From Streptomyces sp. NBC_00557 (GTDB lineage Bacteria > Actinomycetota > Actinomycetes > Streptomycetales > Streptomycetaceae): 64,000 nucleotides of DNA. Below are positions 8,398-16,543 of this stretch, piece after piece. The position numbers were made by a program, and so were the translations under genes. The stretch covers positions 2,604,001 through 2,668,000 of the forward strand of contig NZ_CP107796.1 of assembly GCF_036345995.1 (NCBI RefSeq), written 5' to 3'. The notes under the pieces are model-generated. The model made no database searches. It was not told where the DNA came from and saw only the letters and a list, made by a program, of their open reading frames with translations. The first letter of the stretch is position 1; each line of letters begins with the position of its first letter.

Positions 8398-8539
8398 ACA
8401 AAGTATCCGGATTGCCCACCCGAACAGGGTGGGAAGGCTCCTCCGGTACACACCCCACAGCCGTCCCACAGCACCACCGCAGGACCCACCTCCCCATATC
8501 CATCCGCCCACACCCTCGTTGACGCGGACAGGAGCGGTC

Positions 8540-10959
8540 ATGCCCGCCACGCACGACTCGTCATCACCCCCGACAAGCAGCAAGGACACGGCAGCGGCAG
8601 AGCCGGCAGCCCCGTCGGCGGCGAAGAAACCGGCCGGCGAACCGGCCGGCAGCCCGGCCAGGAAGGCGGCCAAGAAGGCGGCCAAGAAGGCAGTCACCAG
8701 GGCAGTCACGAAGACGGCCACGAAGGCGGCCACCAGGACGGCCTCGAAGACGCCCGGGAACACGGCCGGGAAGACGGCTGCGAAACCGGCCAGGAAGACG
8801 GCCCAGAAGACGGCCAAGAAGGCAGTACCGGCCAAGAAGGCGGCCACGAAGCCTGCTCAGAAGGCGGTCGGGAAAACGGCCGGGAAAACTCTCGGCAAGA
8901 AGTCCGTAAAGGCCGCCGCCGGCGTCACCGGCTCCCCCGGGACCTCGCCGGGTCCGGGCGGCGCCGTACCCCGGCACCGGGGCACCACCCTCGGCCGCAT
9001 CCCGATCCTCGACGTACGGCCCGTGGTCCAGCACGGGCGCAGGCCGGCCAAGGCGGTCACCGGCGAGTCGTTCGAGGTGTCCGCCACCGTCTTCCGGGAG
9101 GGGCACGACGCCGTCGCGGCGAACGTGGTGCTGCGCGACCCGGCCGGCCGGCCCGGGCCGTGGACGCCGATGCGCGAACTGGCCCCGGGCACCGACCGCT
9201 GGGGCGCCACCGTCACCGCAGGTGAACCGGGCCGCTGGACCTACACGGTGGAGGCCTGGTCCGACCCGGTCACCACCTGGCGGCACCACGCCGGCATCAA
9301 GATCCCCGCGGGCATCGACACGGGGCTGGTCCTGGAGGAGGGCGCCCGGCTGTACGAGCGGGCGGCGGCCGGGGTGCCGGAGGCCGAGCGGCAGGTCGTC
9401 CTGGACGTCGTGCGCGCCCTGCGGGACGAGGAACGCCCGGCCGCCTGGCGGCTCGCGGCGGCGCTGGCGCCGGAGGTGACGGACGTGCTGGCCCGTCATC
9501 CGCTGCGGGAGCTGGTGACCGCCTCCGACCCGATGCCGCTGCTGGTGGAGCGGGAGCGGGCCCTGTACGGCTCCTGGTACGAGTTCTTCCCCCGCTCCGA
9601 GGGCACCGCCGAACGCCCCCACGGCACCTTCCGCACCGCCGCGCGCCGGCTGAAGCCGATCGCCGACATGGGCTTCGACGTCGTCTACCTGCCGCCCGTC
9701 CACCCCATCGGCACGACCTTCCGCAAGGGCCCCAACAACACCCTCACCGCCGGCCCCGACGACGTCGGCGTGCCCTGGGCCATCGGCTCCCCCGAGGGCG
9801 GCCACGACGCCGTCCACCCCGCTCTGGGCACCCTGGAGGACTTCGACTTCTTCGTCGCCCAGGCACGCTCCCACGGCCTGGAAGTCGCGCTGGACTTCGC
9901 GCTGCAGTGCTCGCCGGACCATCCCTGGGTGGAAAAGCACCCGGAGTGGTTCCACCACCGGCCCGACGGCACGATCGCCTACGCCGAGAACCCGCCGAAG
10001 AAGTACCAGGACATCTACCCCATCGCCTTCGACGCGGACATGGACGGCCTGGTCGCCGAGACCGTGCGGATCCTGCGGCACTGGATGGACCACGGGGTGC
10101 GGATCTTCCGCGTGGACAACCCGCACACCAAACCGGTCGTCTTCTGGGAACGCGTCATCGCCGAGGTCAACGACCGCGACCCCGACGTGATCTTCCTGGC
10201 GGAGGCGTTCACCCGCCCGGCGATGATGCACACCCTCGCCCAGATCGGCTTCCAGCAGTCCTACACCTACTTCACCTGGCGCAACAGCAAGCAGGAACTG
10301 ACCGAGTACCTCACCGAGCTGTCGGGGCAGGCGGCGGCCTACATGCGGCCGAACTTCTTCGCCAACACCCCCGACATCCTGCACGCCTACCTCCAGCACG
10401 GCGGCCGGCCCGCCTTCGAGGTCCGGGCCGTGCTCGCCGCCACCCTCTCCCCCTCCTGGGGCATCTACAGCGGCTACGAACTGTGCGAGAACACCCCGCT
10501 CAGGGAGGGCAGCGAGGAGTACCTCGACTCGGAGAAGTACCAGCTCAGGCCCCGCGACTGGGAGGCGGCGGCGCGCGAGGGCCGTACCATCGCACCGCTC
10601 ATCACCCGGCTCAACGACATCAGGCGCCGCAGCCCGGCCCTGCGCCAACTGCGCGATCTGCACTTCCACCACGCCGACAAGGACGCGGTGATCGCCTACT
10701 CGAAGCGGAGCGGGTCGAACACGGTTCTGGTGGTGGCCAACCTCGACCCGCACAACACCCAGGAGGCCACGGTCTCGTTGGACATGCCGCAACTCGGCCT
10801 GGACTGGCACGAGTCGGTGCCGGTGCGCGACGAGCTCACCGGCGAGACCTACTACTGGGGCAGGGCCAACTATGTGCGCCTCGAACCGGGCCATAGGCCC
10901 GCGCATGTCTTCACCGTCCTGCGACCGTCCAACCCGCAGATCGGAGGGTCACCCACAAT

Positions 10960-10963
<4 letters not shown>
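8540..10963 (+). CDS. glgE: Maltosyltransferase GlgE with an H1-like N-terminal tail
   Basis: 807 residues, GH13_3 alpha-1,4-glucan:maltose-1-phosphate maltosyltransferase. It extends alpha-glucan using alpha-maltose 1-phosphate made by TreS and Pep2. The core starts at about residue 149 ([15 protein letters not shown]). Asp526 in [11 protein letters not shown] (nucleophile) and Glu555 in FLAEAFTRP (acid/base) correspond to Asp394 and Glu423 of the characterised 675-residue S. coelicolor enzyme, an offset of exactly 132. Those extra residues form a Lys/Ala/Thr-rich tail at about 29-125 (repeats like KKAAKKA, KTAGKT, PAKKA) resembling histone H1 or the HupS tail. AGGAG lies 5 nt before ATG 8540. 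treS overlaps by 4 bases (ATGA). Confidence 0.97.
8620..8915 (+). repeat. Imperfect short tandem repeats encoding the GlgE tail
   Basis: Repeated variants of AAGGCGGCCAAGAAGG and ACGGCCGGGAAGACGG, period mostly 12-15 nt, encode K-x-A-x-K units. Repeat expansion or contraction could change tail length between strains. Confidence 0.7.
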
Positions 10964-12660
<1,697 letters not shown>

Positions 12661-14218: not shown

Positions 14219-16543
14219 GTGACACGCAACAAGTCAGCCACGCCGAAGCACACGTCCGGCACGGGCAGGGCCGAGCAGAAGGCCGCTCCCGCGACCGCGC
14301 CCGCGCGGGTCCCCCCGGCGCGCGCACCCGAGCCGGCCCCGGCCGCGCGGGCCGTCGTCCCCGCTCCCGTGGACGCCGCCGACCGCGACCGCCTGCTGCA
14401 CGGCACCCACCACGCTCCGCACGCGGTGCTGGGCGCGCACCCGGTGCCGGGCGGGGTCGCCTTCCGCGCCTTCCGCCCGTTCGCCCGGGCCGTCACCGTG
14501 GTCGCCGACGGGCTGCGGGCCGAGCTGCACGACGACGGCGACGGCTTCTTCTCCGGGCTGGCGCCGCTCACCGAGGTGCCCGGGTACCGGCTGCTCGTCG
14601 CGTACGACGGCACGGTCCACGAGACGGAGGACCCCTACCGGTTCCTGCCCACCCTCGGCGAGCTGGACCTGCACCTGATCGGCGAGGGCCGGCACGAGCA
14701 GCTGTGGCAGGCGCTCGGCGCGCATGTCACCACCCATCAGGGCGTGCCCGGCACCCGGTTCGCGGTGTGGGCGCCAAACGCGCGGGGCGTGCGGATCGCG
14801 GGGACCTTCAACTTCTGGGACGGGACCGGCTTCCCGATGCGCTCGCTGGGCTCCACCGGGGTGTGGGAGCTGTTCGTGCCGGGGATCGGCGCGGGCGAGG
14901 CGTACAAGTTCGAGATCACCCGCCCGGACGGCTCGCGCACCCTGCGCGCCGATCCGCTGGCCCGCCGTACCGAGGTGCCGCCCGCGACCGCGTCGATCGT
15001 GGACGTCTCGGAGCACGAGTGGGCGGACGCGGAGTGGATGGCGCACCGCGCGGACACCCCGGTGCACGAGGCGCCCTTCTCCGTGTACGAGGTGCACCTG
15101 CCCTCCTGGCGGCCCGGCCTGACCTACCGCGAGCTGGCCGAGCAGCTCCCGCAGTACGTCGGCGACCTGGGCTTCACGCACGTGGAGCTGATGCCGGTCG
15201 CCGAGCACCCCTTCGGCGGCTCCTGGGGCTACCAGGTCACCGGCTTCTACGCGCCGACGGCCCGGCTCGGCACCCCGGACGACTTCAAGTACCTGGTGGA
15301 CCGGCTGCACCAGGCCGGCATCGGGGTGCTGATGGACTGGGTGCCGGCGCACTTCCCGCGCGACGACTGGGCGCTGGCCGAGTTCGACGGGCGTCCGCTG
15401 TACGAGCACCACGATCCGCTGCGGGCCGCGCATCCGGACTGGGGCACCCTGGAGTTCGACTTCGGGCGCCGGGAGGTGCGCAACTTCCTGGTGGCGAACG
15501 CCGTGTACTGGTGCGAGGAGTTCCACATCGACGGGCTGCGCGTGGACGCGGTGGCCTCCATGCTGTACCTGGACTACTCGCGCGAGCCGGGCCAGTGGAC
15601 GCCGAACGAGCACGGCGGCCGGGAGAACCTGGACGCGGTGGCGTTCCTGCAGGAGATGAACGCCACCGTCTACCGGCGCTGCCCGGGGGTGGTGACCATC
15701 GCCGAGGAGTCCACCGCCTGGGACGGCGTCACCCGCCCCACGCACCACAAGGGGCCCAGCGGCTTCGGCGGGCTCGGTTTCGGGCTGAAGTGGAACATGG
15801 GGTGGATGCACGACTCGCTGCAGTACATGAGCCACGAGCCGATCCACCGCAAGTACCACCACCACGAGATGACGTTCTCGATGGTGTACGCCTACAGCGA
15901 GAACTACGTCCTGCCGATCTCCCACGACGAGGTCGTGCACGGCAAGCGGTCCCTGGTCTCGAAGATGCCGGGCGACTGGTGGCAGCAGCGCGCCAACCAC
16001 CGCGCCTATCTGGGCTTCATGTGGGCCCACCCGGGCAAGCAGCTCCTCTTCATGGGGCAGGAGTTCGCGCAGGGCTCGGAGTGGTCGGAGGCGTACGGGC
16101 CCGACTGGTGGCTGCTCGACCCGTCCTACGGCGCCGAGGCCGATCACCGGGGCGTGCTGAACCTCGTACGGGACCTGAACGGGCGGTACCGGGCGACGCC
16201 GGCGCTGTGGCAGCGGGACACCGACCCGGCGGGCTTCCAGTGGATCACCGGGGACGCGGCGGACGACAACGTCTTCGCCTTCCTGCGGCTGGACGCCGCC
16301 GGCTCCCCGCTGCTCGCGGTGTCGCACTTCTCGCCGGTGGTCCGGCACGACTACCGGCTCGGTGTCCCCGACGACGTCCCGGCCTGGCACGAGTGCCTGA
16401 ACACGGACGCCGGGCGGTACGGCGGCAGCGATGTCACCACCCCCGACATCATCAAGCCGGAACCCCAGGGATGGCACGGCCGCCCGGCGAGCATCCGGCT
16501 GACCCTGCCCCCGCTCGCCACGGTGTGGCTGCGGCCGGCGTAG
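14219..16543 (+). CDS. glgB: 1,4-alpha-glucan branching enzyme GlgB
   Basis: 774 residues, GH13_9. It introduces alpha-1,6 branches into the glucan made by GlgE. Layout: Ala/Pro/Lys-rich N-terminus (1-55), N1 carbohydrate module (about 60-165), CBM48 ([22 protein letters not shown], about 180-201), then the (beta/alpha)8 domain with nucleophile Asp443 in [16 protein letters not shown], acid Glu496 in [10 protein letters not shown] and [13 protein letters not shown] 14219 follows AGGAGG with 7-nt spacing. It is last of the glgE-treS-pep2-glgB run; the next gene begins about 50 bp later but looks unrelated. Confidence 0.96.

Follow-up and report, generated by a model that had tools for sequence, protein, structure and literature searches.

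The glgE gene in the stretch of DNA analysed here (the window; 64,000 nucleotides from Streptomyces sp. NBC_00557) encodes a GlgE protein whose N-terminal tail is real, well delimited and unusual, and this tail represents an extreme case of the hypervariable spacer that stands in front of the enzyme core. As to its origin and role, we lean somewhat towards a reading in which the GlgEI spacer would be disordered, a basic patch within it would have been amplified by slippage, and the resulting tail would bind polyanions non-specifically.

GlgE and its basic N-terminal segment

On the plus strand, glgE (8540..10963; 807 amino acids and a stop by translation) was assigned to the GlgEI-type alpha-1,4-glucan:maltose-1-phosphate maltosyltransferases. 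Pfam, alignment, the structural model and Foldseek delimited an enzyme core at residues 152-807 (8993..10960, plus strand), with the N/S domain (PF11896) at residues 152-338 (214.5 bits, cut-off 25) and the C-terminal domain (PF21702) at residues 709-793 (120.3 bits, cut-off 27). The catalytic residues, Asp526 (10115-10117) and Glu555 (10202-10204) on the same strand, were recognized in the motifs RVDNPH and FLAEAF and were invariant among 41 aligned proteins. An AlphaFold model built from 41 sequences reached a pTM of 0.76, and a Foldseek search against the PDB returned only Streptomyces coelicolor GlgE1 chains at ranks 1-7 (84-86% identity; 5lgw first and 3zss fourth), the alignment with chain 3zss beginning at residue 140 of the window protein. 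Judged by its domains and catalytic residues, the window protein is a GlgEI orthologue and a putative maltosyltransferase. The treS gene (10960..12660, plus strand; NCBIfam TIGR02456, 1011.8 bits, cut-off 678.35) overlaps the glgE stop codon. From a reading of their translations, a diverging ORF 5' of glgE and the ORFs that follow treS resemble glgP, maltokinase and glgB. The first ~50 residues of the GlgB-like ORF (14219-16543) are Ala/Pro/Lys-rich and of low complexity.

In front of the core lies a histone-H1-like segment at residues 29-125 (8624..8914, plus strand), delimited by composition. It contains 27 Ala, 25 Lys and 14 Thr (14% Thr, 7% Pro) and a single acidic residue in 97, with a net charge of +28, which bears out the Lys/Ala/Thr-rich repeat that the first-pass annotation had placed at about residues 29-125. 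The underlying DNA consists of 12-bp direct repeat arrays (8655..8889, plus strand) encoding a four-residue unit with slots [A/V]-x-K-[T/A/P], as found by TRF, a repeat finder and slot analysis. In the TRF output, the main array (8655-8821) has a period of 12 bp, 13.9 copies and 76% matches, and shorter arrays continue to 8889. The copies lie at multiples of 6 bp from one another and leave the reading frame open; the tail has a GC3 of 86% and no stops. Residues 1-150 had pLDDT values below 50 in the AlphaFold model, a result to be expected anyway because few relatives align there, and the N-terminal segment is predicted to be disordered. No match between window GlgE and a histone-H1-like Pfam model was found at E 0.001, and the likeness of the tail to H1/HC2 is one of manner of working only, not homology.

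The start of the gene is well defined. A ribosome-binding-site-like AGGAG (8530..8534, plus strand) stands 5 bases before the ATG, and residues 1-8 (8540..8563, plus strand) form a conserved start peptide, MPATHDSS, with an MPATHHSS-like start in relatives. In a first survey, 80 loci were retained from 101 confirmed and 79 were read, L052 lacking its N-terminal part; 19 of the 79 had the start context (RTGA[VA], then MP), each with the conserved first peptide followed by a spacer of 29-131 residues, not alignable by eye, and then the core. GGACAGGAGC precedes the ATG in 16 of these 19 loci (L022, L025 and L043 differ), and the 22 bases at 8518-8539 (GTTGACGCGGACAGGAGCGGTC) are exact in nine of them, with one change in two more. 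This 22-base block exceeds what a ribosome site needs and might have a regulatory or promoter function. After the ATG at 8540, no ATG, GTG or TTG occurs in frame before residue 162; the next start is the GTG at that residue, which falls within the core domain, the first core strand being residues 156-160 in the model. A late start is thus very unlikely, since the start region is conserved, no in-frame start precedes residue 162 and the strand at 156-160 would be lost. Translation starting only after residue ~145 was rejected on the conserved start DNA and first codons and the absence of a start before residue 162, and the extension is very probably translated from the ATG at 8540, the start context of which is conserved in relatives.

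A broader suspicion is that the tail results from a wrong start and is untranslated, or that the repeat array was mis-assembled. Repeat arrays are error-prone in assembly. However, the relatives keep the start DNA and first codons and no in-frame start is present until residue 162, while the repeat copies are diverged, in frame and without stops at the high GC3 given above, and the genome comprises 2 contigs with a completeness of 100. We regard an artefact of either kind as extremely improbable.

The 132-residue shift of the catalytic residues relative to S. coelicolor, from which the tail had been noticed, was confirmed: Asp526 and Glu555 correspond to Asp394, the catalytic Asp of S. coelicolor GlgE1 (PMC5076824), and Glu423, taken from the PDB title of 4cn4. 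GlgE isoform 1 of S. coelicolor (PDB 3zss, 5lgw) is like the window protein in core fold, catalytic Asp/Glu and type of start peptide; however, its type (L257, whose letters SSATSAERPTVV are identical to the PDB chain of S. coelicolor GlgE1) has 18 residues before the core, as against 151 in the window protein. The offset is 132 because one residue missing from the window core in the alignment is subtracted from this length difference of 133.

Spacer variation in Streptomyces and the origin of the tail

The first-pass annotation had proposed a comparison of the tail across Streptomyces GlgE proteins. The searches drew on overlapping sets of genomes: a protein search of 199 genomes matched in 193, one among 61 relatives matched in 49, and a DNA search of 392 genomes of the genus matched in 382. 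From 203 loci, after 65 without the start motif and 16 duplicates were set aside, 122 unique GlgEI-type extensions were obtained, which come from the stronger matches among the matches listed and do not represent weak ones. Among the matches listed, the extensions are 17-276 residues long (median 45), 104 being shorter than 90 residues and 18 having at least 90. Their net charge has a median of +1.5 and leans towards basic in general (84 positive, 13 zero and 25 negative), and 73 carry a start peptide of the MPA[TKRM]HH-like type. In net charge, 118 of the 122 lie below +10, and three of the remaining four reach +15. An H1-like tail as a general feature of GlgE was rejected on these counts. 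The +28 of the window was the highest among the 122 unique extensions from the matches listed.

Long spacers may also have quite another make-up, such as mixed Lys/Asp (L111, L113, L252) or Ala/Pro/Thr (L276, L277). The longest GlgEI spacer seen, L105 in genome G079, is a Pro/Thr/Ser-rich repeat of 276 residues with a net charge of -14, the opposite of the window. In another GlgEI clade (L099, L111, L113, L252, L253, L011), most of the spacer Lys is offset by Asp/Glu, and L111, L113 and L252 have Lys-Asp-Ala repeats. The nearest relatives of the window protein (L084, 91% core identity; L228, 90% DNA identity) have spacers of 52-53 residues with net charges of +4 and +5, which indicates that the enzyme can do its ordinary work without such a tail. 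GlgEII, the paralogue at the other of the two GlgE loci in the same genome (L219; core 88% identical), starts with MRRTPAI, seven residues before the core, and has almost no N-terminal segment.

The idea that GlgE carries a tail therefore stands as far as the segment itself is concerned. It is not an added tail, however: since the start peptide of the form MPATHxSS precedes the repeat, the segment is an internal expansion of the hypervariable spacer behind that peptide. A ready-made histone-like domain fused to the front of the gene was rejected for the position of the start peptide and the many spacer lengths in relatives.

In a tree of 101 core proteins, the window clade comprised 13 members (SH-aLRT 99). 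A 25-residue stretch with a net charge of at least +5 was present in the extensions of all 13, as against 8 of 55 others, six of these eight from one other clade; at a threshold of +4 the counts were 13 clade members and 17 others, and at +6, 11 and 7. The H1-like form occurs in only one of the 13. A bipartite basic cluster lines up in an alignment of ten short clade members, nine of which have both basic pairs, and its possible counterpart in the window lies at residues 41-50 (8660..8689, plus strand) in the clade alignment. The pattern [KR]2-x(2-4)-[KR]2 was found in 14 of the 122 extensions including the window, five of them outside the clade. A search for additional relatives through another centre genome (294 genomes, 252 with a match) gave no new clade member among the matches listed, all of which fell in genomes already covered. 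Eleven clade members differ by a mean of 31% at fourfold sites; when basic codons were simulated without constraint, retention of the cluster had P values of 0.06-0.47 under the highest divergence simulated and at least 0.67 otherwise. It does not follow from these values that the basic cluster of the clade is under selection, and such selection was set aside as a candidate, the retention being compatible with neutral inheritance.

Two other H1-like spacers were found, L287 in genome G335 (net +20) and L271 in genome G347 (net +19), and the spacing of their lysines differs from that in the window. A second, quickly built tree with full cores kept the three apart. The G347 protein joined M41 and G231 (support 97) among proteins with other spacers, the G335 protein formed a long branch by itself, away from the large GlgE group, which it did not enter, and the window protein was placed in a separate 13-member clade (support 99). 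On the basis of the separate branches and the differing lysine spacing, the H1-like spacer form looks to have been gained three times.

These observations bear on an account by neutral slippage, in which the spacer is a tolerated, functionless stretch of low complexity, its basic version is one random outcome, and no polyanion is bound in a way relevant to the cell. The long spacers of many compositions (L105, L111, L113, L252, L276, L277), the compatibility of cluster retention with neutrality and the single H1-like member in a clade of 13 are all in line with it. Against it stand the three separate branches with H1-like spacers and the pattern within the repeat, where acidic residues are avoided and lysine is retained across copies. 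Twenty repeat units, registered by eye, have slots [A/V]-x-[K/R]-[T/A/P]; the third slot is Lys/Arg in 19 of 20, the second is scrambled and acidic residues are absent. The units diverge from their consensus by 0.175 at third positions and 0.229 overall. In neutral star simulations, joint Lys/Arg retention and acid absence had P values of 0.03-0.04 at a per-site divergence of 0.10, 0.004-0.005 at 0.15 and below 0.001 at 0.20, in a test devised after the data had been seen and on the assumption of a star tree; retention in the third slot is by itself a weak test (P 0.005-0.17, depending on transition bias). We regard neutral slippage as a possible but rather doubtful explanation of the whole.

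Lys/Ala tracts in the genome and proposed roles of the tail

For Lys/Ala tracts in the same genome, two DNA patterns were searched, giving 10 and 27 matches (1 and 3 with the reversed patterns); the window's own matches and seven loci judged not to be tracts (L143, L299, L303, L305, L309, L319, L320) were set aside. By these two patterns, tracts were found in genes for an HrdB-like sigma factor, FtsK, TopA, RNase E/G, an HhH-GPD (endonuclease-III-like) protein, a DksA/TraR-like protein and OpcA, and in three more genes without a family match. Six of the seven named genes, that is all except OpcA, presumably have nucleic-acid or transcription roles, going by family name. This distribution favours polyanion binding, although OpcA runs counter to it. 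OpcA, a glucose-6-phosphate dehydrogenase assembly protein (L301, C1:6348335-6348361), has a C-terminal Lys/Ala tract, AKAPAKKAAAKTAKKAPARKATAK, and is, after GlgE, another metabolic protein of this genome that has an H1-like tail. In the DksA/TraR-type zinc-finger protein (L317, C1 about 6175785-6176219), several hundred Lys/Ala/Thr-rich residues stand in front, and it is these that resemble HC2. HC2 (PF07382) matched two other proteins of the genome, the DksA-like protein over the cut-off of 40 (41.6) and the sigma factor below it (27.4).

The GlgE tail is Lys/Ala-rich and highly positive in charge, as lysine-repeat (LR) tails are; its best 80-residue segment has a net charge of +25, as against +18 to +24 in the HrdB-like, FtsK, TopA, RNase E and HhH-GPD tracts; the OpcA, L302 and DksA-like rows of this comparison lay in open frame upstream of the tracts and carry no weight. 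A five-residue lysine period was not found in it, lysines counting 13 at lag 4 and 3 at lag 5. Lag 5 was highest in the HrdB-like, FtsK, TopA and RNase E tracts and lag 6 in the HhH-GPD protein. This difference in period counts against the reading given next.

According to the reading we favour, the N-terminal spacer of GlgEI would change fast in length and composition through in-frame repeat slippage, and a small Lys/Arg patch common to the clade was probably amplified as a 12-bp (four-residue) unit into about 97 H1-like residues. The tail would then bind DNA, RNA or polyphosphate electrostatically and non-specifically, concentrating dimeric GlgE on these polymers, and catalysis would be independent of it. 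Such binding would be expected of a disordered segment of +28 on each subunit of a dimer. It would also have analogies in TopA, HupB, Ku, AlgP and PhaF, where lysine-rich repeat tails do the same or help to do so, and on this analogy polyanion binding by the GlgE tail is plausible.

The segment might instead serve assembly or regulation, either by binding the acidic core or an enzyme partner from the operon, or as a target of a Ser/Thr kinase or of lysine acetylation that tunes activity. The core (residues 152-807) has a net charge of -17 and the tail offers its 14 Thr. Moreover, PknB inhibits M. tuberculosis GlgE by phosphorylating Thr-10 and further sites (PMC11046441), and acetylation weakens the DNA binding of HupS about 2-fold (PMC11229371). 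On the other hand, no genus-wide partner motif was seen in the spacers read, whose composition is not conserved, and the paralogue GlgEII does nearly without an N-terminal segment. We think a role of this kind quite improbable.

Going beyond non-specific binding, the tail could make GlgE a synthase and tether in one protein, the H1-like form anchoring glycogen particles, as they grow, to nucleoid or polyphosphate and having evolved repeatedly in Streptomyces by expansion of spacer repeats. This idea arises from AlgP, PhaF and TopA taken together with the facts on the GlgE dimer and its sugar binding, while the steps involving DNA and granules in this strain are conjectural. We hold it to be unlikely.

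Comparison with known basic tails

Positioning of granules on the nucleoid by DNA-binding tails has already been described for polyester and polyphosphate granules. A literature search of open-licence papers found none joining glycogen granules with nucleoid tethering in bacteria and none on an N-terminal extension of Streptomyces GlgE, and GlgE was absent among the matches listed for lysine-rich, disordered or DNA-binding proteins; a 2025 review (PMC13052382) has 0 occurrences of 'glycogen'. In the present case, a spacer appears to have given rise to a bacterial H1-like tail by way of a 12-bp repeat. Together with the short spacers of sister species and the paralogue in the same cell, which has almost no tail, the tailed GlgE makes up a natural construct set for asking whether a storage polymer is moved by a basic tail.

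Within Streptomyces, lysine repeats have been reported in HrdB, Ku and HupS besides TopA (PMC7398561), and S. coelicolor TopA without its repeats still bound DNA but left it more readily (PMC7398561). These actinobacterial repeats are Lys/Ala-rich and H1-like, as is the GlgE tail (PMC7398561, PMC11229371), but TopA, HrdB, Ku and HupS are, unlike GlgE, associated with DNA or transcription.

AlgP of Pseudomonas aeruginosa is a histone-H1-like protein of polyphosphate granules whose KPAA peptides bind DNA in vitro and whose tail, when removed, alters the granules (PMC9239181). Its tail is Lys/Ala-rich, of low complexity and built on a four-residue repeat, as in GlgE; however, it is C-terminal, KPAA-rich and 154 residues long, whereas that of GlgE is N-terminal, 97 residues long and carried on an enzyme. 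PhaF of Pseudomonas putida binds DNA and positions polyester granules through a basic part with four- and five-residue repeats (PMC3574117, PMC13052382), so that its storage-polymer-binding part and basic repeat part may be likened to the core and tail of GlgE. Of the features of a PhaF- or AlgP-type tether, the window protein has the four-residue repeat tail, while binding of a polymer has been described for the core of S. coelicolor GlgE, a dimer with malto-oligosaccharide bound at secondary sites (PMC5076824), and would be expected by analogy here. If GlgE were indeed a tether, it would be a glycogen counterpart of PhaF (polyester) and AlgP (polyphosphate granules), a parallel that we consider improbable; PhaF is a phasin on polyester granules, whereas GlgE works in glucan synthesis and any DNA binding by it is putative.
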